Origin: Lyngbya sp. HA4199-MV5
GTDB taxonomy: Bacteria > Cyanobacteriota > Cyanobacteriia > Leptolyngbyales > Leptolyngbyaceae
Direction: 5' to 3'
Length of the DNA stretch: 64,000 nt
Assembly: GCA_019359375.1 (NCBI GenBank)
Contig: JAHHHL010000010.1
Location: forward strand, 62,001 to 126,000
Every line of letters begins with the position of its first letter. The stretch's first letter is position 1. A program made the position numbers and the translations under genes. Below, one piece after another: positions 11,789 through 56,494 of this stretch. A model generated the notes under the pieces. That model searched no databases. It saw only the letters and a list, made by a program, of their open reading frames with translations, and was not told the origin of the DNA.

Positions 11789-12880
11789 ATGAAAGCCCTG
11801 TTCATGAACAATTACCCAATGGATCACGCCTGGGATAGCTGGCAAAACGGCGAGTATCCCGGACATCATCTTTGGGGCGCAACCCATCTTGCTCAGCATG
11901 GCATTGAGGTAGAAATCGTCCCCTATCAAACCATGATGCTCCTCAACAAAATGGGGCGAAAGCTAGGGTTGGGAGATCATCTCGATCAGCAGTTGCGGGT
12001 CTTATTTCATCGCGCTGATTTTGATGTGGTGTATTCTGCCTGTCAAACCACCACATTTTTGCTGGCGTTGCTGCGATCGCTCCGCCTGTTTCGCAAACCC
12101 ATTGTTGCCCTCATTCACCATCCATTCGACCATACGCTCAGCGATGCGCTGTTTCTCAACGGGCACGATCGACTGCTGTGCCTGAGTTCCACCATTATGG
12201 AACCCTTTGCTCAGGAGCCGGGAATTCACAAAAAAATGGACGCGATTGAATGGGGAGCCGATCTCCCGTTCTATAGGATGAAATCAGAGCGATCGACACC
12301 ATTCGATACAGCCAAACCATCCTATATTGTCAGCGCTGGCAAGACTGAGCGCGATCACAATACGCTTGTCAACGCCTTTCTGGATATTGACTACCCGCTT
12401 GAAATTTATTGCTCTGCGGCTACCGCTCCCAGTCTCAAAGCATTACCCGATCGCATTACCATTCATGCCAGCGATTCAGCCCATAACGCGGTTTCCTATC
12501 AAGCGCTGTTGACCGCGTATCGCCATGCTTATGCGATCGCCATTCCCCTCACAAACACCAACCATTTAGCGGGTTTGACAAGTTTATTAGATGCAATGGC
12601 AGTCGGAAAGCCTGTCATCATGACGCGCAATTTACATATTGAACTGGATATTGAAACAGAAGGCATTGGTCTTTGGGTCGAACCGGGCGATGTGCAAGGA
12701 TGGCAACAGGCGATCGCCTATCTCCTGGCAAACCCTGAAGAAGCAGAGGCAATGGGCGATCGTGGTCATCGTCTGTGTGAAACAAAATACAACCTGGACA
12801 CCTTTACCACCTCCCTTGCCAGAACGTTGAAAGGAGTCGTAAAGCCCTCTGGGCATACCAGAAAAGTTTTTAGATTTTAG
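11789..12880 (+). CDS. Glycosyltransferase (GT-B, group 1-like)
   Basis: A 363-residue probable GT-B enzyme. The N-terminal Rossmann half starts MKALFMNNYPMDHAWDSWQ and contains an HH motif in IVALIHHPFDHT. The C-terminal half has IVSAGKTERDHNTLVNAF and the donor-site stretch LTNTNHLAGLTSLLDAMAVG. A Glu-x7-Glu motif is not clear; it may be the H/D-variant. It is a member of the polysaccharide gene run. Acceptor and donor are unknown. Confidence 0.78.
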   Translation: MKALFMNNYPMDHAWDSWQNGEYPGHHLWGATHLAQHGIEVEIVPYQTMMLLNKMGRKLGLGDHLDQQLRVLFHRADFDVVYSACQTTTFLLALLRSLRLFRKPIVALIHHPFDHTLSDALFLNGHDRLLCLSSTIMEPFAQEPGIHKKMDAIEWGADLPFYRMKSERSTPFDTAKPSYIVSAGKTERDHNTLVNAFLDIDYPLEIYCSAATAPSLKALPDRITIHASDSAHNAVSYQALLTAYRHAYAIAIPLTNTNHLAGLTSLLDAMAVGKPVIMTRNLHIELDIETEGIGLWVEPGDVQGWQQAIAYLLANPEEAEAMGDRGHRLCETKYNLDTFTTSLARTLKGVVKPSGHTRKVFRF

Positions 12881-12881
12881 T

Positions 12882-13056
12882 TTTTAGAAGGAGTCAGTCA
12901 GAAGCCAAGAAAGTTTTTGGTTTTTGGTTTTTAGTTTTTAGAAGGAGTCAGAACTCAGGAGTCAGAAGTCAGAAGCTTTAACTCATCTTTCATCCTTCCT
13001 CCCTCATCCCTCATCCTCCCTAACAACCAACAACTAACAACCAACAACCAACAACT
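12882..13056 (+). repeat. Low-complexity intergenic repeat cluster (TTTTTAG / GGAGTCAG / AACAACY)
   Basis: The gap between two glycosyltransferase genes is built of short repeats. TTTTTAGAAGGAGTCAG occurs twice (near 12882 and 12936), GTCAGAAG blocks follow, and five tandem heptamers AACAACY lie at 13022-13056. The array stops just before the Shine-Dalgarno (AGGAGA near 13073) of the next gene. Confidence 0.75.
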
Positions 13057-13082
13057 ACTTCGCCCTCTTTGTAGGAGAGCCT

Positions 13083-20992: not shown

Positions 20993-21814
20993 ATGCCATT
21001 GAGTCAAACTGAAGCATTCACCCAGGAAACAACAGCGTTGAGACCGCTTGCGATCGTCATCATTGCTCAGAATGAGGAGGAATGTATTGCGAATGCGATT
21101 CGATCGTGCCAGTCGTTTGCGGATGAAATTGTGGTGGTGGATAGCGGCAGTGACGATGCAACGGTGCAAATTGCCCAGGATCTCGGCTGTCAAGTATATC
21201 ACAATCCCTGGTCGGGCTACTCTAATCAACGGAATTTTGGTGCAGACAAGGCGCAACAGGATTGGATCTTCTTCATTGATGCGGATGAAGTAATTGATCA
21301 AAAATTAGCTGCCGCGCTGCTGGAGTGGAAACAGGCAGCGACGATCGCCGCTAACGCCTTTTCTGCCATTCGCATTGGCGATTTTTGGGATACCTGGCTC
21401 GACACACGACCGGAGTATCACACCCGTCTCTACAACAAAACCATTTTTCGGATCAAGGATGTCCTGGTGCATGAAGGACCTGATGTCAAAGATGCGCCCG
21501 TTGTCAAGCTACCAGGAGTCATCTGGCACTACGGCTTTCGTGACATCAGCGACTTGGTGATTCGCTTCAATCGCTATACCGATCTGGATGCCCAACAAGC
21601 CCACCGCAGCGGCACCCGCTTTAGCCTCCTCCGACTACTGCTCAAACCATCCGCCAAGTTCATACAGCAATACGTCTGGTACGGCATGTTTCGTCAGGGC
21701 ATGGCAGGCTTTACGCTCTCCGGCTTATGGAGTTTCTACATTTTTCTAAAAGAGATCAAGCTGTATGAGATTGATTGGAAAGCGAGGCGATCGCGGGAGA
21801 GGAGTGAGGAGTGA
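20993..21814 (+). CDS. Glycosyltransferase family 2 (WaaE/KdtX-like)
   Basis: A 273-residue GT2 of the lipopolysaccharide-core beta-glucosyltransferase type. It shows LAIVIIAQNEEECIANAI, EIVVVDSGSDDATVQIA, YSNQRNFGADKAQQDWIFFIDADEVID (DAD metal site), YHTRLYNKTIFRIKDVLVHEG and a C-terminal amphipathic region. These phrases in this order are characteristic of the WaaE/KdtX group. The last codons run into repeat-like sequence (RRSRERSEE), so the C-terminus may have been extended by the repeat. Confidence 0.88.
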   Translation: MPLSQTEAFTQETTALRPLAIVIIAQNEEECIANAIRSCQSFADEIVVVDSGSDDATVQIAQDLGCQVYHNPWSGYSNQRNFGADKAQQDWIFFIDADEVIDQKLAAALLEWKQAATIAANAFSAIRIGDFWDTWLDTRPEYHTRLYNKTIFRIKDVLVHEGPDVKDAPVVKLPGVIWHYGFRDISDLVIRFNRYTDLDAQQAHRSGTRFSLLRLLLKPSAKFIQQYVWYGMFRQGMAGFTLSGLWSFYIFLKEIKLYEIDWKARRSRERSEE

Positions 21815-21824
21815 GGAGTCAGAA

Positions 21825-21951
21825 GTCAGCCATTCCTCAATGCACGCTCATCCACTGGTGAATGTTTCACTGCTCACCGATAACCGTTAAAACCCTTTAC
21901 CCCTTACCCTTTACCCCTTCTACCTCCTGCCTCCTGCCTCCTGCCTTCTGC
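21825..21951 (+). repeat. Intergenic repeat: 56-bp dispersed unit plus CTYCTGC heptamers
   Basis: Bases 21825-21880 match 25835-25890 at 50 of 56 positions, in the same orientation. A YTTTACCCC-type tract and four heptamers (CTCCTGC three times, CTTCTGC once, 21924-21951) follow. The whole lies directly before the O-antigen polymerase gene, and its sister lies before another polysaccharide gene. Confidence 0.8.
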
Positions 21952-21972
21952 CTTCATCCCCCATCCCTTCCC

Positions 21973-23430: not shown

Positions 23431-25794
23431 GTGAAACCGTTTACTAATCATGGAGTATCGGCTGCGATACAGGGTGCCACGAGCGCCCTACCATTAAAGC
23501 CAGTACAGCATCCTGCAAAACCACACCTGGATGGGATTCAGGTGTGTCGAGGCATCGCTGCCCTACTGGTGGTGTTGTTTCATACCACTCAATTGAGCCA
23601 GGAAAAGCTCGGTCAGCCGTTTTTAGGCAATCTGTTTGCCTTTGGTGGCGCAGGCGTTGATTTTTTCTTTGTGCTCAGTGGCTTCATTATTTTCTTTGTG
23701 CACCAGGCAGACGTGGGACAGCGCGATCGCCTCAAGCCCTTTATCATCAAGCGCTTGATTCGGATTTATCCACTCTATTGGCTAGTCACGTTAGCCATCC
23801 TGCCGATCTATTTTTTGATGCCGCAAACGGGCTACGGCTATGAGCGCGATTTAACCGTGATTGTGAAGTCGTTATTACTCATTCCGCAGGAGCATTTTCC
23901 AGTCTTAATTGTGGGCTGGTCATTGAGCCATGAAATGCTCTTTTATGGCATCTTTGGGTGCATTATTTTTTTATCGCTAAAGCTGTCTAGAGTTCTGCTT
24001 GCAGGGTGGCTTTTGGGTACATTAGCCCTCTTTATCGGCAATTTTACAGGCGTATGGACGCGAGAGAATCATTCCATTCAGTTCCTTTTTAACGCTCATA
24101 ATTTAGAGTTTGCCTTGGGTTGTTTAGCCGCCTTTTTAGTCTTGAACAAACGCTTTGACGCAGAAAAGTTCTTTTTTCTTCTTTTCGGAACGACTCTTTT
24201 TCTATTCTTTGGCGTTGCTCAAGCCCAGCGATCGCTCCTCCCAAACCCCATTCTGGCTTACGGCATCCCTTCCATGCTGATTGTGCTGGGAGCCGCATCA
24301 TTTGATTTGCAGCGATCGCACCATCAGTCGAACACACCACTATTGAAGCTGTTTACGTCTTTGGGGGATGCCTCTTACTCTATTTATTTGACACACTACC
24401 TTTGTTTGTCTCTTCTATTGAAATTAGTCCTGGCAACCCATCTGATTCAAATGATTGGTTATGCCGTCACGATCGGTTTGTTGCTGCCCATCACAATCGG
24501 TATCGGTTATCTCACATACAAATGGCTGGAACATCCCATAACAAACGGGTTACGACAGAGGCTTTTTAGCAAGACGATCGTGAATTCAACGGTGAAAGCA
24601 AACGCCATGACGAACCAGCCACTCCACTCAGACGCTTCAACCAGGGAACTAAACATTCTTTTTCTTGACCAGAGTGGCAAACTGGCAGGCGCAGAACTCT
24701 GCTTATTGGATATCGTGCAGCCATATCGCGATCGCAGCCTCGTTTGTTTATTCACAGACGGACCCTTTCGAGCCGCGTTAGAACAGCAGGGCATGAGGGT
24801 GCAGATACTTGCTACCCGGACAATGGAGGTACGCAAAGATAGTGGACTGGTGCAGGGGTTTCAAAGCCTCAGTCAACTGCTGCCGCTTGCCGTAAAAGTT
24901 GCCCAGCTTAGCCGCGACTATGATGTGATCTACGCCAACACCCAGAAAGCCCTTGTCGTCGGTGCGCTGGCAAGCCTGCTCAGTCGTCGCCCCCTGGTTT
25001 ATCATCTGCACGATATTTTGTCGATCGACCACTTCAGCCGCACCAATCGCCGTCTCGCGGTAACACTAGCGAACCGCTGCGCCAGTCGCGTCATTGCCAC
25101 TTCTAACGCCAGTCGGGAGGCATTCATTCAGGCAGGTGGAAGAGCCAACATCGCCACCGTCGTCTATAACGGGTTTGAGCCAGCCGCGTACCTGAAACCA
25201 GGTGCGGACGTGTCTCACCTTAAGCAGCAGCTTGGGCTACACGGTCAGTTTGTCGTAGGTCATTTCAGCCGCTTATCGCCCTGGAAAGGGCAGCACATTT
25301 TGCTAGAAGCCCTCGTTGATTGCCCTGAGAATGTTTCAGCCATTTTTGTTGGCGATGCCCTCTTTGGTGAACAGAACTATGTGCAAACGCTGAAAACGCA
25401 GGTGGAAACCCTGGGACTGCAAAACCGGGTGCAGTTCTTAGGCTTCCGCTCCGATGTGGTGCCACTCATGCACGCCTGCGATCTCATTGCCCATACCTCC
25501 ACCGCACCAGAACCCTTTGGGCGCGTGATTGTCGAAGCGATGCTCTGCGGCAAACCCGTTATTGCCTCTGCCGCTGGTGGCGCTGTAGAACTGGTAGAAC
25601 CAGGAGTCATCGGCTGGCTCGTTCCTCCCAGCGATGTCAAGGCATTAGCAACGACGATCGCCCATTGTCGCAACCACCCAGAGCAAATAGCCGCGATCGC
25701 CCAAATTGCCCAAACCACAGCCAGCAAACGCTTTGATATTAACCAGATTCGCCAGCAGATTGACCAGGTGTTGAGGGAAGTTGTTGGTTGTTAG
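23431..25794 (+). CDS. Fusion of acyltransferase-3 membrane domain and GT4 glycosyltransferase
   Basis: A 787-residue two-part protein. Residues ~34-385 are an OafA-type acyltransferase-3 domain with about ten TM helices. They include the catalytic-type Arg/His pair in VCRGIAALLVVLFHTT (His51), GVDFFFVLSGF and RIYPLYW. Such domains O-acetylate or succinylate sugars. Residues ~408-787 are a complete GT4 domain: LNILFLDQSGKLAGAELCLL, VVYNGFEP, VVGHFSRLSPWKGQHILLEAL and HTSTAPEPFGRVIVEAMLCGKPVIAS. The GTG start at 23431 is supported by GAGGAGG. An internal ATG at 24607 (residue 393) lies in the linker and could restart translation of the GT half. No frameshift or stop separates the halves. Confidence 0.87.
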   Translation: MKPFTNHGVSAAIQGATSALPLKPVQHPAKPHLDGIQVCRGIAALLVVLFHTTQLSQEKLGQPFLGNLFAFGGAGVDFFFVLSGFIIFFVHQADVGQRDRLKPFIIKRLIRIYPLYWLVTLAILPIYFLMPQTGYGYERDLTVIVKSLLLIPQEHFPVLIVGWSLSHEMLFYGIFGCIIFLSLKLSRVLLAGWLLGTLALFIGNFTGVWTRENHSIQFLFNAHNLEFALGCLAAFLVLNKRFDAEKFFFLLFGTTLFLFFGVAQAQRSLLPNPILAYGIPSMLIVLGAASFDLQRSHHQSNTPLLKLFTSLGDASYSIYLTHYLCLSLLLKLVLATHLIQMIGYAVTIGLLLPITIGIGYLTYKWLEHPITNGLRQRLFSKTIVNSTVKANAMTNQPLHSDASTRELNILFLDQSGKLAGAELCLLDIVQPYRDRSLVCLFTDGPFRAALEQQGMRVQILATRTMEVRKDSGLVQGFQSLSQLLPLAVKVAQLSRDYDVIYANTQKALVVGALASLLSRRPLVYHLHDILSIDHFSRTNRRLAVTLANRCASRVIATSNASREAFIQAGGRANIATVVYNGFEPAAYLKPGADVSHLKQQLGLHGQFVVGHFSRLSPWKGQHILLEALVDCPENVSAIFVGDALFGEQNYVQTLKTQVETLGLQNRVQFLGFRSDVVPLMHACDLIAHTSTAPEPFGRVIVEAMLCGKPVIASAAGGAVELVEPGVIGWLVPPSDVKALATTIAHCRNHPEQIAAIAQIAQTTASKRFDINQIRQQIDQVLREVVGC

Positions 25795-25834
25795 TTTTTA
25801 GTTGTTAGAAGTAGTCAGAAGCCAGAAGTCAGGA

Positions 25835-25954
25835 GTCAGCCTTTCCCCAATGCACCCTCATTCACTGGTGACTGTTTCACTGCTCACTGACAGCTGCTCA
25901 CTGGCGACTGTTCAAACCCTTCACCCTTTACCCTATACCCTTCACCCTTCATCC
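25835..25954 (+). repeat. Second copy of 56-bp intergenic unit plus YWYACCC heptamers
   Basis: Bases 25835-25890 are the partner of 21825-21880. Five heptamers (TTCACCC, TTTACCC, TATACCC, TTCACCC, TTCATCC) run from 25920 to 25954, ending eight bases before the next start codon. GTCAGAAG-type repeats lie just upstream. Confidence 0.8.
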
Positions 25955-25961
25955 CTCCCCC

Positions 25962-27104
25962 ATGCCCCACTCGTCCCCCACTATCAGCGTCTTCCTCCCT
26001 GCCCTCGAAGGCGGTGGTGCCGAACGTGCCATGCTGCATTTGGCAGAAGGTCTTGCCGATCGCGGCTTCAAGATTGACCTGGTACTGGCAGAGACGAAAG
26101 GAGCCTATGTGGAAATGGTGCCGTCTGCTATTCGGATTGTGGATTTGAAGGCACGATCGCCGCTTTTAGTCTCTAAAACCTTTGCTTTACGCCGCTATTT
26201 GCAGCAGGAGCAACCAACAGTCCTTTTGTCAGCGCTGGATATTCTGAGTTCTGCAACGTGGGCACAGCGACTCGCCGGAGTACCGACCCGCGTTGTGATG
26301 TGCGTGCAAACAAACCTGTCGCAGCAGTTTCGGGATCATCAGCCCAACACGATCGGACGGCTCAGACCCAAGCTGGTGCGCCTGTTTTACCCCTGGGCAG
26401 ATGCGATCGTCGCGGCTTCTAGAGGTGTCGCAGAGGATGTCGCGCAAATTACCGGGATACCCGCCGACACGATTCGCGTGATTTACAACCCAGTCGTCAC
26501 GCCAGCCGTCCTCGCCAAAATGCAACAGCCCGTTGACCATCCCTGGTTTGCACCAGACGAACCGCCGGTCATTTTGGGCGTGGGGCGACTGGTCAGCCAG
26601 AAGGATTTCCCGACGCTTGTGGATGCCTTTGCGATCGTCCGCCAGCAGCGATCGGCGCGACTGATGATTTTGGGTGAAGGGGAAGATCGAGAAACGCTAG
26701 AAGCCCAAATCCGCGCACTGGGCTTGCAAGACGATGTAGCGCTCCCTGGCTTTGCCGAAAATCCCTACGCGTACATGGCTCAAGCCAACATCTTCGCCCT
26801 GTCCTCCATCTTTGAAGGCTTTGGTAACGTGGTTGCCGAAGCAATGGCAGCAGGCACCACGATCGTCTCCACCGATTGCCCCAGTGGTCCTGCCGAGATT
26901 TTAGACGGTGGCAAATACGGCACCCTGGTTCCTATGAGAAATGCCACTGCCCTTGCAGCAGGCATCTTAACCGCGCTGGAACAGCCGATCGCCCCTAACA
27001 TCCTTCGTCAACGCGCCCAGGAATTTTCCGTCGATCGTGTTGTTGATCAGTACATCGACGTACTCGCAAAACTCACGCCATCTCAAACAGTTCAGGCTAG
27101 GTAG
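25962..27104 (+). CDS. Glycosyltransferase family 4
   Basis: A 380-residue GT4 of the PglA/WbpX-like type: ISVFLPALEGGGAERAMLHLAEGLADRG at the N-terminus, then VIYNPVVTP, ILGVGRLVSQKDFPTLVDAF, LMILGEGEDRETLE, VALPGFAENPYAYMAQANIFALSSIFEGFGNVVAEAMAAGTTIVSTDCPSGPAEIL. All donor-binding motifs, including E-x7-E, are intact. It lies between two repeat tracts and is oriented with the rest of the locus. Confidence 0.89.
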   Translation: MPHSSPTISVFLPALEGGGAERAMLHLAEGLADRGFKIDLVLAETKGAYVEMVPSAIRIVDLKARSPLLVSKTFALRRYLQQEQPTVLLSALDILSSATWAQRLAGVPTRVVMCVQTNLSQQFRDHQPNTIGRLRPKLVRLFYPWADAIVAASRGVAEDVAQITGIPADTIRVIYNPVVTPAVLAKMQQPVDHPWFAPDEPPVILGVGRLVSQKDFPTLVDAFAIVRQQRSARLMILGEGEDRETLEAQIRALGLQDDVALPGFAENPYAYMAQANIFALSSIFEGFGNVVAEAMAAGTTIVSTDCPSGPAEILDGGKYGTLVPMRNATALAAGILTALEQPIAPNILRQRAQEFSVDRVVDQYIDVLAKLTPSQTVQAR

Positions 27105-27244
27105 GGAGAAGGGAGAAGGCAGAGGGCAGGAGGCAGAGGGCAGAAGGCAGGAAGAAGCACAAGAGGCTGGGGAAGCAGAGGAGGCTCAACTCAAAATTCA
27201 AAACGTCTCTACACCTACACCCCACACCCTACACCCCGCACCCT
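27104..27244 (+). repeat. STRR tracts: seven GGVAGRR heptamers and four RCACCCY heptamers
   Basis: The gap between two GT4 genes consists largely of seven tandem heptamers at 27104-27152 (GGGAGAA twice, then GGCAGAG/GGCAGGA/GGCAGAA variants) and four at 27217-27244 (ACACCCC, ACACCCT, ACACCCC, GCACCCT). The second array ends immediately before the next ATG, leaving no normal Shine-Dalgarno. Confidence 0.85.
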
Positions 27245-28303
27245 ATGCGAATTCTGCATATCCTCAACCACATTCAGGAAATTGGCAACGGCATTGTCAA
27301 CGTTGCCGTTGATCTGGCGTGCTTGCAGGCAGAAGCGGGACATACCGTTATGGTTGCCTCTGGTGGTGGAGAGTACGATCGCCTCCTGACCCGTTACGGC
27401 GTGAAAACGGTACTGCTCGATCAGCGCCGCCAGCCGCTCAACCTGCTTCAAGCTGCGAGACAGTATCACGCGCTGGTAGAAGACCTTCAGCCAGACATTA
27501 TCCACGCTCACATGATGACGGGGATGGTTTTGGCGTGGATGTTGCGAGGCAATGCCAGTTATGGGCTGGTGTCTACCGTTCACAACGAATTTCAGCGCAG
27601 CGCGATCTTAATGGGACTTGCCGATCGCGTTCTTGCCGTGAGCCAATCGGTTGCCGATTCCATGACACAGCGAGGCATTCCTCAAGCAAAGCTAAGGGTT
27701 GTCCGTAACGGCACGCTGGGCAGTCCACGGGAACGCCTGTCAGAGTTGCCACCCGTTACCCTGCAACGACCCGCGATCGCCACCCTTGCTGGTATGTATC
27801 ACCGCAAAGGTGTCGCTGACCTCATCACCGCTTTTGAGTATATAGCCGCAGAGTTCCCGGAGGTTCATCTTTATCTGATTGGGAATGGTCCCGATCGCGT
27901 TGAGTTTGAGGCACAAGCAAGCAAAACCAACGTGGCAGACCGCATTCACTTTGAAGGCTACCAGGCAGAACCGCAGCGCTATCTCCGCAGCACCGATATT
28001 TTCGTCCTGGCATCCCGACAGGAACCGTTTGGCTTGGTGCTATCCGAAGCCCGCGAAGCTGGTTGCGCGATCGTCGCCAGCAACGTAGACGGCATCCCCG
28101 AAGCGCTGGACAATGGCAAAGCAGGCATTCTTGTACCAGCGGCAAATCCCCCAGCACTGGCAGAGGCGATCGCCCCCTTGCTACGTGATCCTGAGTTGTT
28201 GCAGGACTGGAAAGCGCGATCGCAGCAGAATCTCGATTGGCTCAACGTCTCACGAGTCCACACGGAAACGCTGGCAGTGTACACCGAGTTAATGGCTAAT
28301 TAG
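27245..28303 (+). CDS. Glycosyltransferase family 4
   Basis: A 352-residue GT4: MRILHILNHIQEIGNGIVNVAVDLACLQ, IIHAHMMTGMVLAWMLR, then IATLAGMYHRKGVADLITAFEYI, VHLYLIGNGPDRVEFE, IHFEGYQAEPQRYLRSTDIFVLASRQEPFGLVLSEAREAGCAIVASNVDGIPEAL. The E-x7-E motif is complete. It closes the plus-strand polysaccharide run. The start codon follows an STRR directly, so translation initiation may depend on an unusual leader. Confidence 0.89.
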   Translation: MRILHILNHIQEIGNGIVNVAVDLACLQAEAGHTVMVASGGGEYDRLLTRYGVKTVLLDQRRQPLNLLQAARQYHALVEDLQPDIIHAHMMTGMVLAWMLRGNASYGLVSTVHNEFQRSAILMGLADRVLAVSQSVADSMTQRGIPQAKLRVVRNGTLGSPRERLSELPPVTLQRPAIATLAGMYHRKGVADLITAFEYIAAEFPEVHLYLIGNGPDRVEFEAQASKTNVADRIHFEGYQAEPQRYLRSTDIFVLASRQEPFGLVLSEAREAGCAIVASNVDGIPEALDNGKAGILVPAANPPALAEAIAPLLRDPELLQDWKARSQQNLDWLNVSRVHTETLAVYTELMAN

Positions 28304-48652: not shown

Positions 48653-49492
48653 CTACTCGTCTGCTTTACAGCAAGGAGCAATTGGCGAGGTCGCGACTGG
48701 TTCCAAATTAGTTTGGCGGAGTAGGTCAGACCAGGCGCGGGCGATCGCAGCATCAACAAATTGCTTTCCTTGCACTTGAAGCCCCAGTGTGGTTAGCGCG
48801 TCATACCAGATGCCATTTGCGGCGTAAAAGGTGGCGCGATCGAGCGGAGTTTTGGCTATCGCTAGTTGGCGCTGTAGCTGAGTGGAAGGTGTAATGCGTT
48901 GAATACCACCGCTGAAGATAATTGGACTATCAATGCTTGGTTCAGCCAGGGCACTGTTACCTGAGTTGCAAAAGAGCCTGATTTCCCAACGATGGGGTGT
49001 GTTGGCTTGTAGAGGGGGAGCAGTGGCGGGAATGGGTAGACTCAAGACGGCGGCTGGCGTATGGGGAGGAATTTGAAACGTCAGACGGTGGCTGCTTTTG
49101 TTAGACCCATCTTGCAAGACAAGGACAGCTAGAGCACCGTCTTTGATGCCGCTGGACGTATGGAGCCAGAAGGTTGGACGATCGGCAGTGGTCAGTCCCC
49201 AGCGAACAGTTTTATGACCAGAAGGAGTGAGTGGCACAAGTGGGGTTAGCGAGGCTTCAGAACGATCGCCACAGCCTCGACCAGCACCGCCTTGACTGCG
49301 CCCACTGCCCGGATCGTTAACCACAGGTGGCGGTGGAAGGGCAGCAGGAGGGTTGAATGGAATGGCAACTGACGATGGATTAGCGATCGCGTTAGTTTGC
49401 GATCGCGCCACCTGAGCAGGGCTGAAGGCGACCACCAGTGCCAGGGTTGAGGCGACCCCCATCGTTGCATGGCTTAGTTGAATGTTAATCAT
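48653..49492 (-). CDS. DUF928 family secreted protein
   Basis: 279 residues. A signal-like N-terminus (MGVASTLALVVAFSPAQVA) precedes a Pro-rich linker and then the DUF928 core. That core has RGCGDRS-type Cys, LTPLVPLTPSGHKTVRWGLTTADRPTFWLHT, HRLTFQIPPH and RWEIRLFCNSG, then IQRITPSTQLQRQLAIAK and GIWYDALTTLG. The second copy at 61113-61817 has the same order of blocks. It overlaps the end of the CHAT-CHASE2 gene by eight bases, so it is in the same operon. DUF928 genes are found near CHASE2 and CHAT genes in cyanobacteria (from memory); biochemical role unknown, likely periplasmic. Confidence 0.8.
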   Translation of the reverse strand: MINIQLSHATMGVASTLALVVAFSPAQVARSQTNAIANPSSVAIPFNPPAALPPPPVVNDPGSGRSQGGAGRGCGDRSEASLTPLVPLTPSGHKTVRWGLTTADRPTFWLHTSSGIKDGALAVLVLQDGSNKSSHRLTFQIPPHTPAAVLSLPIPATAPPLQANTPHRWEIRLFCNSGNSALAEPSIDSPIIFSGGIQRITPSTQLQRQLAIAKTPLDRATFYAANGIWYDALTTLGLQVQGKQFVDAAIARAWSDLLRQTNLEPVATSPIAPCCKADE

Positions 49493-51848
49493 GAGGTGTT
49501 TTCGGTTTAGCTGTAGCCGTTAAGAGCGCTACAGAGGTGCTGGTGATCAACAGGGCAACGATGGGTGGAGCGAGGGGAATCCATCCCCCTTGAATCAAAC
49601 ATACCTGACACAGACCAATGAGAATGCCGATCGCAATCCCAACTGCCAGGATTAAAAATCCCAATCGGCGAAACTGCCACGCAAGCACGCCGCCGATGAT
49701 CGCCCAGCCTGCAATCCAGAGCGGCTCAATCCAGGTTGCCCAGACCCACAGCAACGGGCGGCGATCGAGCACGGCGCTGAGCATCTGACTGATCATTTGA
49801 GCGTGAAGCAGCACTCCGGGGATGCGATCGATATCTGCTTTACCAAACGGCGTTGTCCAATAGTCGCCGCTGCTGTGGGGGGCGGCAATGCCAATCAACA
49901 CAATTCGACCGTTGATCGCGTTGGGATTGATCTGGTCAGTCACTACTTGAGTCAGGGTTGCCTGTTGAGCAATCTCACGAGGAGAAGGCGCGGCACGGTA
50001 ATTGAGCAAGACCTGTCCACTGTTGGCAACGAGGGTTTGATAGCCGCCCGTGCGACGTTGCAGTTGGCGAAAAACGGTGTTGCTAAACTGCAAGTCGTTT
50101 TGGGGTGTTACCGTAGCTTGAATGCCCTTCGCCTCGAGATAGTGGTTTGCCAGTTGCACACTGAAGGCATAAGCAGCGGTACAGCGTGAGCTTGGGTTGG
50201 CGGGCAGAACGAGCAAATGACGACGCACTACGCCATCGGCATCGCGGACAAAATCACTGAATCCTAAACGGCTCTCTGGCACTTCTGGAGGAGGCAGAAC
50301 GCCGATCGGATCGCTCTTGGCAGCAGGGCGTTTACACACCGCGAACAGGTGGTTCTGTTTCAAACGGGTGGCGAGTTCAGGTACATCGGTGGGCGTATCG
50401 CGGTAGAGATCAAGCCCGATCGCGGCAGGTTTGTGCTGTCCCAGTTTTTGCAGCAAGCGGTTCAAGGTGCGATCGGAGATGGAACCGCGACGCATTTTTT
50501 CACCCTCTGCCTGAATGTCTTGCTCTGTAATGGTGACAGCCAGCAGACGAGCATCGGGCGGTTCAGCAGGACGCGACTGCATCAGGCGATCGAAGCTCCA
50601 GAGTTCCAACGGCTGTAACCAGCCCAAACAGCGCACTCCGGCAATCAAGCTAGTCACTACCAGGCTGTTGAACAGAACCATTTGTAGCTCGTGACGACTG
50701 GGCAAGTGCAGGGGAAACGATCGTGCGCCGCACCAGTCTTGCCAGGTTGGTGGCACCTCAGCAGGATTCTGACAGATAACCGGGAGCCAGGTGGCACAGG
50801 GAAAGTCGGCTTCCAGGGCTTGCAGTTTTTCTCGTGCCTCGCGCACAGCGGTATACAGCGATGCTCCACCCGCAAACGCGGTGAGAAAATGCTTGAGAAA
50901 CTCCTGCGCCACGCGATCGGGTACGGGTTCTCGCATCACGATGACCTGGGGCAAATGCAGGTCTGCCAGATCGCGTGCCAGTCCTAACCCATCGCAGGAG
51001 TTAAAGATTGCCAGCTTCAGCCCATGCGCGATCGCCGTTCGCAAGGCAAACTTCAATTGTGCGATCGTCAAACTTTCTGTTGCATTCACCGCAATGCTGC
51101 CGACTCCCGACTCCCGACTCCCGACTCCCTGCCCCGAACTATGTCCGGCAAAAAACAGCACATCCCAACCTGGCTCCCAAAGCTGCTGATTCAATTCACT
51201 GGCGTTTGGCTCCACCAAAAACGTGAGTTCGGCACCGGGCAATTGCTGCAACATCTGTTGATCTTTGGCAACGTCAATGCCCTCGTGGTTGCCCAGGATG
51301 GCTAGAATTCTGACCTTGCGGCGTGGTTTTGTCGCTGCTGCTTTGGTCGATCGCAGGTACTCTGGCACACTGAGCGCAATTTCTGCGTTGGGGTAATCGT
51401 CTAGAAACGACCAGAGGCACCACGGCAATCGCAATAGCGTTGCGTCATCAGCAACGATGATTAACCGAATGTGATCGGCAGGTCTAAGCTGCGTTCGTAA
51501 CTGGCGATCGATCTGCCGAAACGCCTCCGCGTTCAACCAGCGATTCAGAGCCGTTTGCAAGTCCTGGCAAAGCTGATGAAACTCGGTTTGAGAAAGGTGC
51601 GTCAGGTCGCCTTCATCGACTTCAAAGGATGGCGATCGAACACCCGATCGCCATCCTTTACTGCCATACAGGGCTTCATACAACCGTTGCCAGCGTCGAT
51701 ATAGCGCTTCTAGCTCTGGTGCGGCAGGCAAACTGCCTGTGAACTGCATCGGATTAGGACTATGCTCATCCCACAGTTGAGCAATCACAGTGGGCAACCC
51801 ATGCTGCAAGTCTCCGTTTCCCAAATTTAGAACAACGAGGTAGCGCAT
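49485..51848 (-). CDS. CHAT protease-CHASE2 transmembrane sensor protein
   Basis: A 787-residue membrane protein. Residues 1-375 hold an N-terminal region and a CHAT (caspase-like) peptidase domain with catalytic His236 (LFFAGHSS) and Cys285 (IFNSCDG). A TM follows at about 390-410. Residues ~413-690 form a CHASE2 sensory domain (FDRLMQSRP, LLAVTITEQDI, AAIGLDLYRD, LGFSDFVRDADGVVRRHL, GRIVLIGIAAPHSSGDYWTTPFG). Three TM helices end the protein (about 698-724, 730-751, 757-778). CHASE2 is extracytoplasmic, so the protease faces the cytoplasm and an outside signal could gate it (inference). A heptamer repeat is embedded three residues after the catalytic His. The gene lies after DUF1822 and overlaps the DUF928 gene. 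Confidence 0.88.
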   Translation of the reverse strand: MRYLVVLNLGNGDLQHGLPTVIAQLWDEHSPNPMQFTGSLPAAPELEALYRRWQRLYEALYGSKGWRSGVRSPSFEVDEGDLTHLSQTEFHQLCQDLQTALNRWLNAEAFRQIDRQLRTQLRPADHIRLIIVADDATLLRLPWCLWSFLDDYPNAEIALSVPEYLRSTKAAATKPRRKVRILAILGNHEGIDVAKDQQMLQQLPGAELTFLVEPNASELNQQLWEPGWDVLFFAGHSSGQGVGSRESGVGSIAVNATESLTIAQLKFALRTAIAHGLKLAIFNSCDGLGLARDLADLHLPQVIVMREPVPDRVAQEFLKHFLTAFAGGASLYTAVREAREKLQALEADFPCATWLPVICQNPAEVPPTWQDWCGARSFPLHLPSRHELQMVLFNSLVVTSLIAGVRCLGWLQPLELWSFDRLMQSRPAEPPDARLLAVTITEQDIQAEGEKMRRGSISDRTLNRLLQKLGQHKPAAIGLDLYRDTPTDVPELATRLKQNHLFAVCKRPAAKSDPIGVLPPPEVPESRLGFSDFVRDADGVVRRHLLVLPANPSSRCTAAYAFSVQLANHYLEAKGIQATVTPQNDLQFSNTVFRQLQRRTGGYQTLVANSGQVLLNYRAAPSPREIAQQATLTQVVTDQINPNAINGRIVLIGIAAPHSSGDYWTTPFGKADIDRIPGVLLHAQMISQMLSAVLDRRPLLWVWATWIEPLWIAGWAIIGGVLAWQFRRLGFLILAVGIAIGILIGLCQVCLIQGGWIPLAPPIVALLITSTSVALLTATAKPKTPHD
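51102..51129 (+). repeat. In-frame STRR: four GACTCCC heptamers inside the CHAT domain
   Basis: Four perfect tandem heptamers lie inside the CHAT-CHASE2 coding sequence. On the coding strand they encode the loop GVGSRESGVGS (about 241-251), right after catalytic His236. Since 7 is not a multiple of 3, any change of one unit would shift the reading frame. Confidence 0.9.
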
Positions 51849-51858
51849 GGGGACAGGC

Positions 51859-51886
51859 GGGAGTGGGGAGTAGGGAGTGGGGAATA
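51859..51886 (+). repeat. STRR: four GGGARTR heptamers in the leader of the CHAT-CHASE2 gene
   Basis: GGGAGTG, GGGAGTA, GGGAGTG and GGGAATA in tandem, 10 bases upstream of the CHAT-CHASE2 start codon (minus strand). They occupy the place of a Shine-Dalgarno, so copy changes might alter translation. Confidence 0.8.
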
Positions 51887-52050: not shown

Positions 52051-53217
52051 CTAGACAACAAAGTCTTCGGTGATGATGGTGTTGTCGATCGCCACCTGCA
52101 AACTGAACTGAGTCTCAGGCGGGCACTTGAATCGTTTTAACTGAATCACGTTGTCTCGATCGCGGGCTTGTATCGCTTGAACCGTTTCGCCAGCAGTAGA
52201 CAGCAGGGTCAGGCTCAGTCCTTCGGGTAGGCAATCAGTGGCATCAAGGGGACGAAGCTGAGCTTGAATGCTGACTCGACCATCTGCTTGTGGCTCCACG
52301 GCAACGAGCAACAAGATATTTTTATTGGGAAGACGCACCCGCTTGGCTCTACGGATGGATCGCTGAGTGCGATCGTCGCGTCGAAAGTTAAACGCCTCGG
52401 CTTCAATACCCAACTGCTCCAGTGTTTGCCAGCCTTCGTCAAAACGATTTTGCAACCACTGGCTGAGGTTTGCAAGGGTGCGCGTGAGCGAGGTGGATTC
52501 GCCCCGACGCGATCGCCCCAGTTGTTGTCGCCAGTCATCATTAGTAATCAACGCTGCCCAAAGGTGAAAGGGAATTTCTAAACGGGGTTGCAGTACGGCG
52601 GGATTTGCCAACCGTTGCAGCAGGTTTTCTGCCTGAACTGCGGACAGCGGGGACAGGGGCGCAATTTCTGTCCTGGTCAGCTCTGGAAACTGACACACAA
52701 TCCACAGAACGCTCAAATCTTGCACCAACTGATAAGCATCCAGGCAATAGACGCGGTGGTCTGCATCGTAGGTGCCCAGAGTCTTGAGCTGTGCATGGGT
52801 GGTGTATGCCCAAAGGCGAAGGCACAGATCGTCTGGGTCTACCTGAACAGCCAGATAATAGTCGCCTGCCCACGCAGGAAGATCGACCCACTCTTGCGGC
52901 ACTTGGAGTTCGCTGGTGTCGATGGTTTTGTCTGGAATGAGAATCAACCGCCGATCGCAAAGGTCGATCGCGGTGCCTCTCACCAGTTCCCCTAAAAGCG
53001 GCACTGCACCAGACCAGGCAGTTGCGTTTGGGGCGTGGTTTGAATGATAGTCTGCCTGTAGCCAGGGCAATACTGTGTGCAAGCAAACTTGATTTAAGTA
53101 CGTGTTCCATTGAGTTAGGGGATTTGAAGCAGATTGGCTGTGCTGCCAGGACTCCTGGTGAATCTCTGGTGAAATCTCCAGCCTCAACTCAGTCAAGGTA
53201 TCGGGTAAGAAGCTCAT
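52051..53217 (-). CDS. DUF1822 family protein
   Basis: A 388-residue soluble protein of the cyanobacterial DUF1822 family: VPQEWVDLPAWAGDYYLAVQVDPDDLCLRLWAYTTHAQL, then the conserved DADHRVYCLDAYQLVQDLSVLWIV and a C-terminal beta-rich part (KNILLLVAVEPQADGRVSIQAQLRPLDATDCLPEGLSLTLL). No TM or enzymatic motif is visible. It sits between the sigma-like gene and CHAT-CHASE2. By analogy with CHAT-substrate-sigma systems it could be a sigma partner or protease substrate (inference only). Its start lies within a 22-bp tandem duplication that moved it away from the sigma stop codon. Confidence 0.82.
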   Translation of the reverse strand: MSFLPDTLTELRLEISPEIHQESWQHSQSASNPLTQWNTYLNQVCLHTVLPWLQADYHSNHAPNATAWSGAVPLLGELVRGTAIDLCDRRLILIPDKTIDTSELQVPQEWVDLPAWAGDYYLAVQVDPDDLCLRLWAYTTHAQLKTLGTYDADHRVYCLDAYQLVQDLSVLWIVCQFPELTRTEIAPLSPLSAVQAENLLQRLANPAVLQPRLEIPFHLWAALITNDDWRQQLGRSRRGESTSLTRTLANLSQWLQNRFDEGWQTLEQLGIEAEAFNFRRDDRTQRSIRRAKRVRLPNKNILLLVAVEPQADGRVSIQAQLRPLDATDCLPEGLSLTLLSTAGETVQAIQARDRDNVIQLKRFKCPPETQFSLQVAIDNTIITEDFVV

Positions 53218-53240
53218 AGGTATCGGGTAAGAAGCTCATA
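53197..53240 (+). repeat. Perfect 22-bp tandem duplication across the sigma/DUF1822 junction
   Basis: The unit GGTATCGGGTAAGAAGCTCA plus TA occurs at 53197-53218 and again at 53219-53240 without mismatch. Each copy contains the ATG of DUF1822 (53215-53217 and 53237-53239, read on the minus strand). The outer ATG overlaps the sigma stop as ATGA but now leads out of frame to a 16-codon peptide. Confidence 0.95.
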
Positions 53241-54660
53241 GGTATTCCTGGAAGTCGCGATTTGGGGCGATCGTTCCGCTATGGGATTGATCCGTCTCGT
53301 AATGAAGCTGCAACCATTCTTCTAAAATGGTGCTCATAGATTTAACCACGGTGGAGGTTGGCGAAATATGCAGCGTCTCCTGGCTCCAGTGAGTTAAGGC
53401 TAAGAGTAACGTTTCTCGCGCTTTGGTGAGTTTGCGAGAGACAGTGTATTGCTGCACGGCAAACTGTTGAGCCATTTGCTGTTGAGATAGTTTTGCCTGG
53501 TAGTAGAGTTGCAGTAGCTCTTGCATGGCTGGATCGAGCTTCGCCAGAGACTCTTTCAGCACCGCGTTGATTTGGTGTTGCTGAGTCTGACGATCCTGAG
53601 TCTCTTCGGCAGCAATCAGATCTGCCAGCAGCGAATCACGATCGCGATCGGGCACATCATCCTGAAGTTCACCCGCATCCTGTCCTGGTTTGGGGGCATT
53701 CAGCGACGTAACGCGAGGGTACAGGTATGCCCGCACTCGGCTCACACAGGCTATCAGCAAATGTTCCAACGTTGCAGGAGTGCAATCTAAACCAGGTGAA
53801 CTGCGTTGGTGACGCTGCTGGTTGTAGCGATCGGCGATCGCGTTCCAGGTTGGGCGATCTGGTGCGGCAAGCTGACGCAATCCCGGTGCTTTTCGAGGCA
53901 GATAAACGGCTTCAAAACACGTCCATGCTAATAGAGAGCGATCGATGTCATCACTCCCAAAGCCAGCATTTTGCAGCGCTTCTGTGAGTTGTTTCCGGCT
54001 CAGCTTCAGCAGCAAGCCCCAATCATTGCAACGGTCTGCCTCCCGACGACGGCGCAAGTCATCTCGAATGGTGTTGCCAAAAGCTTGACTGGCATACGTT
54101 TTGAGGCTGGGCAGTTGATTAGAGTCGAACGCATTGAGAATTTTGGGCACCGCCGCGATCGCCACCTGAAAGCAATCCGACAACTGATGCTGTGATTGGT
54201 GTAACTGAGCCACGATCCGCTGTGCGCTCCAGTAGCAGGATTCTTGCAGGTAAGCGGAGAGGTGACCGAGGGGAAGAGGTGAGGAGGGAGGAGGTGAGGA
54301 GGGAGGAGGGAGGAGGGAGGGGTGTAGGGTGTGGGGTGTGAGGTGTGGGGTGAATATTCCTGCGTCTCCGTGTCTCCGTGTCCCCGCGTCTCTGTATCCC
54401 TGCGTCTCCGTGTCTCCGCGTCCCCGCGTCCCTGTGTCCCCGCGTCTCCCTATCCCCCCACTCTCCCCTGCCTCTTCCTGCCAGCGTTTGTGCCAGTACG
54501 TTGCCCAGAAGTGCTCGGAGGTAGTTGCGTCGTCAAGTTGCTTCAGGCAAGACTGCATACTGCGGCGTAAGCGAGCATCCGTTGCCCAGCCACGAAAAAC
54601 GTCTTCCTCAAATTGCAGGAAGGTGGAGAAAAGATCGAGGAGGGTTTGACGCGATCGCAT
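53236..54660 (-). CDS. Sigma-70-like transcription factor with in-frame repeat insertion
   Basis: A 474-residue protein from the Met at 54660. The C-terminal part shows a sigma region 4-like helix-turn-helix (LAKLDPAMQELLQLYYQAKLSQQQMAQQFAVQQYTVSRKLTKARETLL). The middle has a region 2-like stretch (FDSNQLPSLKTYASQAFGNTIRDDLRRRREADRC). I recall similar sigma-like proteins beside DUF1822 genes in cyanobacteria. Residues ~65-132 are pure translated tandem repeats (Arg/Gly/Asp/Thr, then Pro/Ser/His-rich) inserted between two conserved parts (HKRWQEEAG and HLSAYLQESCYW). The frame extends upstream to 54825 through more low-complexity sequence, probably leader. It is first in the minus-strand operon with DUF1822. 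Confidence 0.75.
   Translation of the reverse strand: MRSRQTLLDLFSTFLQFEEDVFRGWATDARLRRSMQSCLKQLDDATTSEHFWATYWHKRWQEEAGESGGIGRRGDTGTRGRGDTETQGYRDAGTRRHGDAGIFTPHLTPHTLHPSLLPPPSSPPPSSPLPLGHLSAYLQESCYWSAQRIVAQLHQSQHQLSDCFQVAIAAVPKILNAFDSNQLPSLKTYASQAFGNTIRDDLRRRREADRCNDWGLLLKLSRKQLTEALQNAGFGSDDIDRSLLAWTCFEAVYLPRKAPGLRQLAAPDRPTWNAIADRYNQQRHQRSSPGLDCTPATLEHLLIACVSRVRAYLYPRVTSLNAPKPGQDAGELQDDVPDRDRDSLLADLIAAEETQDRQTQQHQINAVLKESLAKLDPAMQELLQLYYQAKLSQQQMAQQFAVQQYTVSRKLTKARETLLLALTHWSQETLHISPTSTVVKSMSTILEEWLQLHYETDQSHSGTIAPNRDFQEYL
54265..54468 (+). repeat. Repeat block inside the sigma-like gene: 11 octamers YGYRTCYC and flanking heptamers
   Basis: Eleven tandem octamers run from 54361 to 54448 (e.g. 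CGTGTCTC, CGCGTCCC, TGTATCCC). Heptamers GGTGTRR (54321-54352) and GAGGAGG-type units (from about 54281) adjoin. All lie within the coding sequence and translate in frame to residues ~65-132. Octamer slippage changes the frame because 8 is not a multiple of 3. Confidence 0.9.
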
Positions 54661-54776
54661 AGTGCAAGGAGAAAGGAGGCAGGGGAGCAGGGGAGGCAGC
54701 GGAAGCAGGGGAGGCAGAGGAGGGGAATTTTGAGTAACGCTTTGTGCCGCAGCGGTGGGGAGGTTTAAGTTTTGAG

Positions 54777-54977
54777 GCTGGTTGACTGACAAATCTTTTA
54801 GCGAGTACTTGAACCCGCCTTGCACTGAAAGTGCGGGCTGATGGCAGAAAGTCCTCTCAAGAGGACTACGAGCGTCTTACAACCCGTTTTAACGGGTTTC
54901 GCACCCTTAGCCCCGATTTTAATCACAGGCGGGTGAGCAACGAAGCGACCAGCCTTTCAAGATTTTGTCAGTCAATC
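54777..54977. mobile_element. MITE of about 200 bp with terminal inverted repeats and 10-bp target duplication
   Basis: Left end TGGTTGACTGACAAATCTT (54779-54797) and right end (54959-54978, complement TGATTGACTGACAAAATCTT) form imperfect terminal inverted repeats. AAGTTTTGAG flanks it on both sides (54767-54776 and 54978-54987), as expected for a target-site duplication. Inside are three hairpin-forming motifs: CCGCCTTGCACTGAAAGTGCGGGC, AGTCCTCTCAAGAGGACT and AACCCGTTTTAACGGGTT. There is no coding capacity. It lies in the leader of the sigma-like gene, between it and the upstream CHAT gene. Confidence 0.82.
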
Positions 54978-55075: not shown

Positions 55076-56494
55076 CTACCAGGGATTGCCAATCAGCGTG
55101 AACGCTGCCCAATAATAGGGGTGGGCTAGCTTAGCTCCTTCAACTGTTATGTCTGGTGGTAGGGGGACAGTATCGCCAGTTCGCAGTGCCAGATTTTGAT
55201 TCAAATTTACCTGTTTTTTAAGCAAAGCAAGTTGCGCCTGCCGTAATGCCTCTGCTTTGATGGGTGCGGTTTTGAGTTGGCGGTAGAGTTCAGTCATTAG
55301 AACTAACGTGCCTGCGTCGCTGACTGACCAGAGGCTGGCGATCGCTGCTCTGCTGCCCGACTGCACTGCCAAGCCAGCAAACCCCAGTTCGGCTTCAGGA
55401 TTTCCCAATGCCGTCTGGCAAGCACTCAGTACCAACAACTGCACGACCGGAACCCGCAATTCCAGATCCCTGAACTGGGTGAGACGCAACTGCTGCCTCC
55501 AAAACTGGATATAGGACTGATTCGCCGCTCCTGGCAAAAATTCGGCGTGGGTTGCCAGATGCACAATGCCGTATGATGTTGCAGCACGTTGAGCTTTCAG
55601 GTTCGCAACGGTAAACTCTTGATTCAGTAGCGATTTGCCCTGCCAGAGCGTGCGAGTAATTGCCGTCAGTTCAACCGGAACCGCTGGAAGCGGCGACTGA
55701 TCCTGAAATTCGGATGCTCCCATGGCTAACACTTTCGTTCCCTGGAGGCTTGCGGGGTGGCGATCGACCAGGTTGAAGGCTGGAATCAGCCCCAAACTGT
55801 ATTTCTCAACCAAAAACCGTTGTCCATCGTGGAGTGCTGCCATTGGCAAACTGCGTAACCCTGTTCCCAGGCAAAGGATGAGCGTATCGATTTTTTGTGC
55901 CTTCAACACAGGCTCCAATGGTGTAATCAGCCACTCATGCAACTGTTTTGCTGCGGGTAGATAGTCCTCTGGTCGGGATGCTGCATTCACCACTTCGGTT
56001 CTGAAGGTTTTGGCAGCAGTGCTCAGTGCTTCCCGGTTTGCTGCTGTGATGCGGTGATGCACTGGCTTGGTTCCAGGCGTGACCAGAATCAGCTCCAGGT
56101 GGTTGGGCGTGGGAATGGCATAGATCAGGGCGGTTTTCTTGCCAGTGGAACGATGCAGGTTATCCAACGATCGCACAATCTGTTCAGGTTCCAGATATGG
56201 AAGCGTAAACTTTCCCCCGTAATACTGCTCAAACTGGTATTTCCACCCCAATTCAACTTGGCGAATTGCATCTGAAACATCGTTCTGGTCAAGCACCTGC
56301 ACTAATCTTTCAACGTTTAAGCGTGAAGCTGTGGACGGTGCAATCGTGGTTGATGCTGGGGTTGAGGCAGCAGGCAAAGTGGGTGAGGCAGGTGTTTGAG
56401 CGATCGCCGATCGAGCGATCGTCAACGCAGCGCCTCCTCCCGACGCAGCGCTTACAACCAGTGAAATCAGCAAAGACAGCCTAAAAGAATTCAT
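55076..56494 (-). CDS. Exported CHAT domain protease
   Basis: 472 residues. A signal peptide (RLSLLISLVVSAASGGGAALTIARSAIAQT) and a Ser/Thr/Pro-rich linker are followed by a CHAT domain (about 100-472). It is of the type usual in cyanobacteria: LILCLGTGLRSLPMAALHDGQRFLVEKYSLGLIPAFNLV, VLAMGASEFQ, catalytic His316 in VHLATHAEF, catalytic Cys359 in LVLSACQTALG, and C-terminal HPYYWAAFTLIGNPW. TPR repeats, frequent partners of such domains, are absent. It lies upstream of the sigma-like gene on the same strand, separated by repeats and the MITE. Periplasmic location is inferred from the signal peptide. Confidence 0.88.
   Translation of the reverse strand: MNSFRLSLLISLVVSAASGGGAALTIARSAIAQTPASPTLPAASTPASTTIAPSTASRLNVERLVQVLDQNDVSDAIRQVELGWKYQFEQYYGGKFTLPYLEPEQIVRSLDNLHRSTGKKTALIYAIPTPNHLELILVTPGTKPVHHRITAANREALSTAAKTFRTEVVNAASRPEDYLPAAKQLHEWLITPLEPVLKAQKIDTLILCLGTGLRSLPMAALHDGQRFLVEKYSLGLIPAFNLVDRHPASLQGTKVLAMGASEFQDQSPLPAVPVELTAITRTLWQGKSLLNQEFTVANLKAQRAATSYGIVHLATHAEFLPGAANQSYIQFWRQQLRLTQFRDLELRVPVVQLLVLSACQTALGNPEAELGFAGLAVQSGSRAAIASLWSVSDAGTLVLMTELYRQLKTAPIKAEALRQAQLALLKKQVNLNQNLALRTGDTVPLPPDITVEGAKLAHPYYWAAFTLIGNPW

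Follow-up and report, generated by a model that had tools for sequence, protein, structure and literature searches.

The CHAT-CHASE2 locus and its heptanucleotide array

The window, by which we mean the whole 64,000-nt stretch of DNA analyzed here, carries on its minus strand a gene cluster containing a CHAT-CHASE2 gene. The genes and repeats discussed below are as follows.

48653-49492, minus strand: DUF928 gene of the same cluster (Pfam), also found in related loci
49485-51848, minus strand: CHAT-CHASE2 gene (787 aa; Pfam PF12770 and PF05226) with a His236/Cys285 dyad
51100-51129, minus strand: heptamer array, (GGGAGTC)4 plus a partial unit on the coding strand, encoding ...GVGSRESGV... (residues 240-250); absent from orthologues
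51859-51883, strand not assigned: imperfect heptamer array (GGGAGTG) directly upstream of the CHAT-CHASE2 start codon
52051-53217, minus strand: DUF1822 gene of the same cluster (Pfam), with synteny in related loci
53236-54825, minus strand: sigma-like ORF (Sigma70_r4, Pfam)
54258-54457, minus strand: repeat-rich in-frame insert of ~60-70 aa in the sigma-like gene, with 7-, 8- and 15-nt periods

Judged from its sequence, the 787-aa product is CHAT protease-like, and proteolysis is its predicted activity. Profile matches place CHAT at residues 107-354 (PF12770, E 6.7e-18) and CHASE2 at residues 399-720 (PF05226), and both His236 and Cys285 are invariant across 21 aligned homologues.

GACTCCC is repeated four times without mismatch at 51102-51129, or 4.3 times when the partial units at 51100-51129 are included (100% matches). 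A search with the doubled unit, allowing up to two mismatches, found five matches in the window against a mean of 0.22 in shuffled sequences, and none of 100 shuffles reached five. The first base of the array is the third of codon 240, and the first residue encoded entirely by the repeat is residue 241, following H236-S-S-G-Q240. When the unit number was varied in silico from zero to eight, the frame remained open at one unit (780 aa, the length of the orthologues), four units (787 aa) and seven units (794 aa). With 0, 2, 3, 5, 6 or 8 units, a stop codon is reached after 244-291 residues, before or around Cys285. All six frames of the unit itself are free of stop codons, which, with both strands considered, is true of half of all heptamers.

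An earlier note on this DNA had reported the four perfect units and held that a change in unit number inactivates the protein. Both statements agree with our results: gain or loss of one or two units puts the sequence out of frame, and the protein then ends at 251-284 aa, so that Cys285 is lost or lies just beyond the end and all of CHASE2 is lost. The note also placed the array three residues after the catalytic His236 and called its total length frame-preserving. The array does adjoin His236, but four residues intervene before residue 241. The full 28 nt cannot be divided evenly into codons; the frame is preserved because, compared with most orthologues, the gene has gained a net 21 nt.

Heptanucleotide arrays throughout the genome

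The genome comprises 6.9 Mb in 95 contigs, and its named relatives are Leptolyngbya-like cyanobacteria. Genome-wide, tripled GACTCCC matched 27 times, overlaps included, and the reversed control pattern not once; 20 distinct arrays of at least three units were counted. The unit also forms arrays in each of the six same-genus genomes searched, but such arrays are nearly absent from the rest of the 58 relatives. Within this genome, 14-15 of the 20 arrays lie in frame inside long ORFs; the count is given as a range since the PurL ORF (L008) probably starts after its own array. With 15 of 20 arrays in long ORFs, GACTCCC is not depleted in genes. Its hosts include LeuS, TrpE, MnmE, CarB, RecG (N-terminal), a MenE-like ligase, the HpnB glycosyltransferase, a hybrid histidine kinase and a CHAT-TPR protein, among others.

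Heptamers of any sequence were counted as exact lag-7 runs of at least 21 nt in a sample of 464 kb, consisting of the window and 20 other stretches, with genes called by our own codon-pair model (coding fraction 0.77). This census yielded 53 exact heptamer arrays and none for periods of 1, 2, 3, 5, 6 or 8 nt. Twenty-two arrays were within called coding sequences (CDS), two straddled a boundary and 29 were intergenic, so that heptamers as a class are under-represented in CDS (22/53 versus 0.77, p = 5e-8). Extrapolation from the sample gives ~790 heptamer arrays per genome, ~330 of them in CDS. Sampled in-CDS hosts include NurA, UvrA, LarC, NAD-dependent DNA ligase (LigA), MutS, an S15 peptidase and a WD40 protein. 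Pfam domains extend through the inserts of these hosts, and the array-bearing genes are real, conserved genes.

Array length differed between the two settings. Exact three-unit arrays made up 1 of 22 in CDS versus 18 of 31 elsewhere, and arrays of at least four units 21 of 22 versus 13 of 31 (Fisher 4e-5; 0.003 when one repeat-rich gene is removed). The scarcity of three-unit arrays in CDS is expected if a change of +3 units joins one pre-existing unit.

Among adjacent arrays, a G-rich one preceded a C-rich one in 16 instances and followed it in none (p = 3e-5; stretches L130-L149 and the window), which suggests palindromic composite elements of ~70-230 bp. RNA folding of two composite inserts was no better than that of shuffled sequences (z -1.1 and +2.3).

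Large in-frame inserts derived from heptamers were seen in NAD-dependent DNA ligase, MutS, UvrA and LarC (L147:3592-5841, L147:8662-11694, L133:16639-19692 and L146:6128-7780). The inserts in these four proteins follow one plan, with a G-rich arm, a middle of the QNSKLKTQNS type and a C-rich arm. Clusters of differing heptamer arrays, mostly intergenic, were also observed in the window at 12868-13057, 21795-21956, 25779-25956 and 27103-27245.

Phase variation and quadruplex formation as possible roles

These genome-wide counts bear on two explanations that would give the CHAT array a regulatory role. In the first, the array is a contingency locus, at which slippage by a single unit toggles the CHAT-CHASE2 protein. 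The perfection of the array fits this explanation, as does the 7-nt unit, since any change of one or two units is a frameshift and the truncations at 244-291 aa fall around or before Cys285. However, perfect GACTCCC arrays of similar length are carried in frame by LeuS, CarB, MnmE and TrpE, other heptamers are carried by LigA, MutS and UvrA, and the CHAT-CHASE2 orthologues lack the array. Arrays of this size must be fairly stable, since essential genes carry them and slippage there would be costly or lethal. The location of the CHAT array therefore lends no support to phase variation, which we regard as very unlikely, and the hint in the earlier note of a special placement or switch is not supported. 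The CHAT array is one among hundreds of heptamer repeats in the genome and no special switch of its own gene. A phase-variation switch should not be called from a repeat in one genome.

The second explanation is that the coding-strand sequence (GGGAGTC)4 forms a G-quadruplex in mRNA or DNA and thereby tunes expression. The array does contain four G3 tracts, and the predicted energy of this part of the mRNA is -28.0 kcal/mol when quadruplexes are allowed versus -19.5 kcal/mol otherwise. Quadruplex formation in vitro is documented for G-rich four-unit heptamers from Nostoc and Xanthomonas, in which four units are preferred (PMC4692102). On the other hand, the C-rich strand is the coding strand in about half of the 15 GACTCCC arrays in long ORFs, and many heptamers of this genome, such as TTTAGCC, AACAACT and ATTGGTC, contain no G tracts. 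Quadruplex control thus seems quite improbable as the reason for the array.

A probable tolerated insertion in a flexible loop

A short loop, reading HSSSQG-KG-I or longer by 0-4 residues, is seen in the 29 orthologues and homologues taken from other genomes, and the loop in the window exceeds the usual length by 7 aa (21 nt, three units). The nearest orthologue, from Leptolyngbya sp. FACHB-321 (88% identical; L035, on a contig shared with L032), has a 6-aa (18-nt) insert at the same site that is unlike that of the window: CAGGGA-AACAGGCAACAACAGGGA-GCGGG. This insert shows no significant 7-nt periodicity (lag-7 p = 0.12), and the two peptides, GVGSRESGV in the window and NRQQQGA in FACHB-321, have nothing in common. 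The next relative (83%) has no insert in the loop. Since the FACHB-321 insert is 18 nt rather than 21 nt and is not clearly heptameric, the two inserts could be unrelated. It had been proposed that orthologues sharing the loop with non-repetitive codons would speak against a meaningful repeat; this applies in part to FACHB-321, whose loop is of similar length with codons that are not clearly repetitive, and all other orthologues lack the extra residues.

AlphaFold2 modeled the CHAT domain over 395 aa with an average pLDDT of 82.7; residues 240-248 have values below 50 and lie in a hairpin loop joining the strand at 230-234, which comes before His236, to the strand at 251-253. The predicted fold resembles those of separase, Csx29/TPR-CHAT and SAVED-CHAT. 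The insert does begin five residues past the catalytic His, and both sister species have a lengthened loop here. Selection of the extra residues for an altered substrate choice of the protease is nevertheless extremely unlikely: the two inserts share no peptide, the predicted order is low and unrelated enzymes have comparable inserts in their loops.

We consider it very likely that the CHAT array is a cyanobacterial heptanucleotide repeat of the short tandemly repeated repetitive (STRR) type, tolerated in a disordered or flexible surface loop as a net insertion of three units. A heptamer repeat would have been inserted or expanded in this loop. It may then have been kept because the frame survives only net changes in multiples of three units, the unit is free of stop codons and the loop seems to tolerate changes in length. 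The peptide GVGSRESGV probably has no dedicated function, although it may slightly affect substrate access.

Loop positions shared across the genus

For comparison across the genus, eight genes were picked for their GACTCCC arrays and their orthologues were aligned from same-genus genomes. Periodicity of 7 nt (p < 0.01) was detected in 30 of 43 same-genus loops, counting the GACTCCC-chosen genes and CHAT, versus 4 of 18 loops from other genera (Fisher 0.0014, a value that treats species as independent, which they are not). Five genes came from the random sample, and of the 20 same-genus loops captured for them, 18 were periodic at 7 nt; loops of MutS and of some LigA, LarC, UvrA and NurA orthologues were missed by the search patterns and are not counted.

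The most clear-cut example is the loop directly after NKIDL in MnmE, which carries arrays of about equal length built from different units, namely ACTCCCG in G000, ACACCCC in G002 and ACTCCCC in G006, and the unit in G003 is ACTCCCT (MnmE loci L009, L084, L087 and L091-L093). In CarB, the insertion is a young one, measuring 78 nt in this genome and 27 nt in the six other same-genus species, with a different insert in G014. A rule that all loops change in strict multiples of 21 nt was rejected, as it holds for a GNAT-like protein (0, 7, 14 and 42 aa) but not generally.

A tentative reading, to which we give somewhat less than even weight, is that the heptamers of this genus are self-spreading or self-converting short elements. 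They would have settled in shared surface loops of many essential proteins, where they swap units between species and keep the frame and often the length; the CHAT loop would be a young instance. Homogenization would then have to use three-unit steps or copying from other arrays, since single-unit slippage would break the genes.

While the CHAT array alone is a tolerated repeat insertion, the wider turnover of translated heptamers, with conserved positions and maintained frame, is of more interest. In this one genus, a 7-nt repeat class usually thought to be non-coding supplies fast-changing loops in LeuS, MnmE, TrpE, LigA, MutS, UvrA and other essential enzymes. Two questions thereby become testable: how units not divisible by three homogenize inside the reading frames of essential genes, and how a protein accommodates low-complexity loops that change rapidly.

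Relation to known repeat families

Nostoc contains heptameric long simple sequence repeats of the form GGGGA(C/T)T, and about one-third of the arrays are intragenic (PMC4692102; PMC4679880 for the repeat class). The arrays described here resemble cyanobacterial heptanucleotide STRRs in their tandem 7-nt units, their many loci, their frequent length of about four units and, for heptamers as a class, their preference for regions between genes. They differ in the large share that lies in frame inside housekeeping enzymes and in loop positions that are held genus-wide with differing units. No description of in-frame STRRs with differing units in loops of housekeeping enzymes was found in the literature searched. 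A microsatellite survey of Leptolyngbya-like genomes covers unit classes of up to six bases and does not mention heptanucleotides.

Rickettsia palindromic elements (RPEs) are likewise genome-wide repeats translated as extra peptides in unrelated genes (PMC10969869), and a further likeness is the order within the composite heptamer inserts, where the G-rich part precedes the C-rich part (16 to 0). In contrast to RPEs, which form families of ~150 bp with a conserved peptide, the heptamer arrays have no common core. The CHAT insert is one-armed, with only the G-rich part, and thus lacks the inverted repeat that defines such a family. The TAACTGA repeats of Beggiatoaceae and some cyanobacteria are also dispersed tandem heptamers, some of them in ORFs. 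They contain stops in the three forward frames and are mostly intergenic (PMC4679880), whereas GACTCCC is stop-free in every frame.

Repeats in the neighboring genes

The same cluster was said to hold a second gene with a repeat, and the sigma-like gene indeed also carries an in-frame repeat insert. A related insert of another length is present in FACHB-321, and the two less closely related orthologues in this alignment have none. For the sigma-like ORF, the listed GTG is probably not the true start, which would lie farther downstream (MRSRQTLLDLF...). About 0.33 exact in-CDS arrays are expected per 7 kb, and the Poisson chance of two in one 7-kb cluster is ~4%. Two repeat-bearing genes in one cluster are therefore mildly unusual at most and consistent with the genome-wide pattern.

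Two further features were observed in this region. A second CHAT-domain protein is encoded at 55076-56494 of the window, directly upstream of the sigma-like gene. At 53196-53245, a 22-bp unit is present in 2.3 perfect tandem copies that span the start of the DUF1822 gene and duplicate the region of its start codon.
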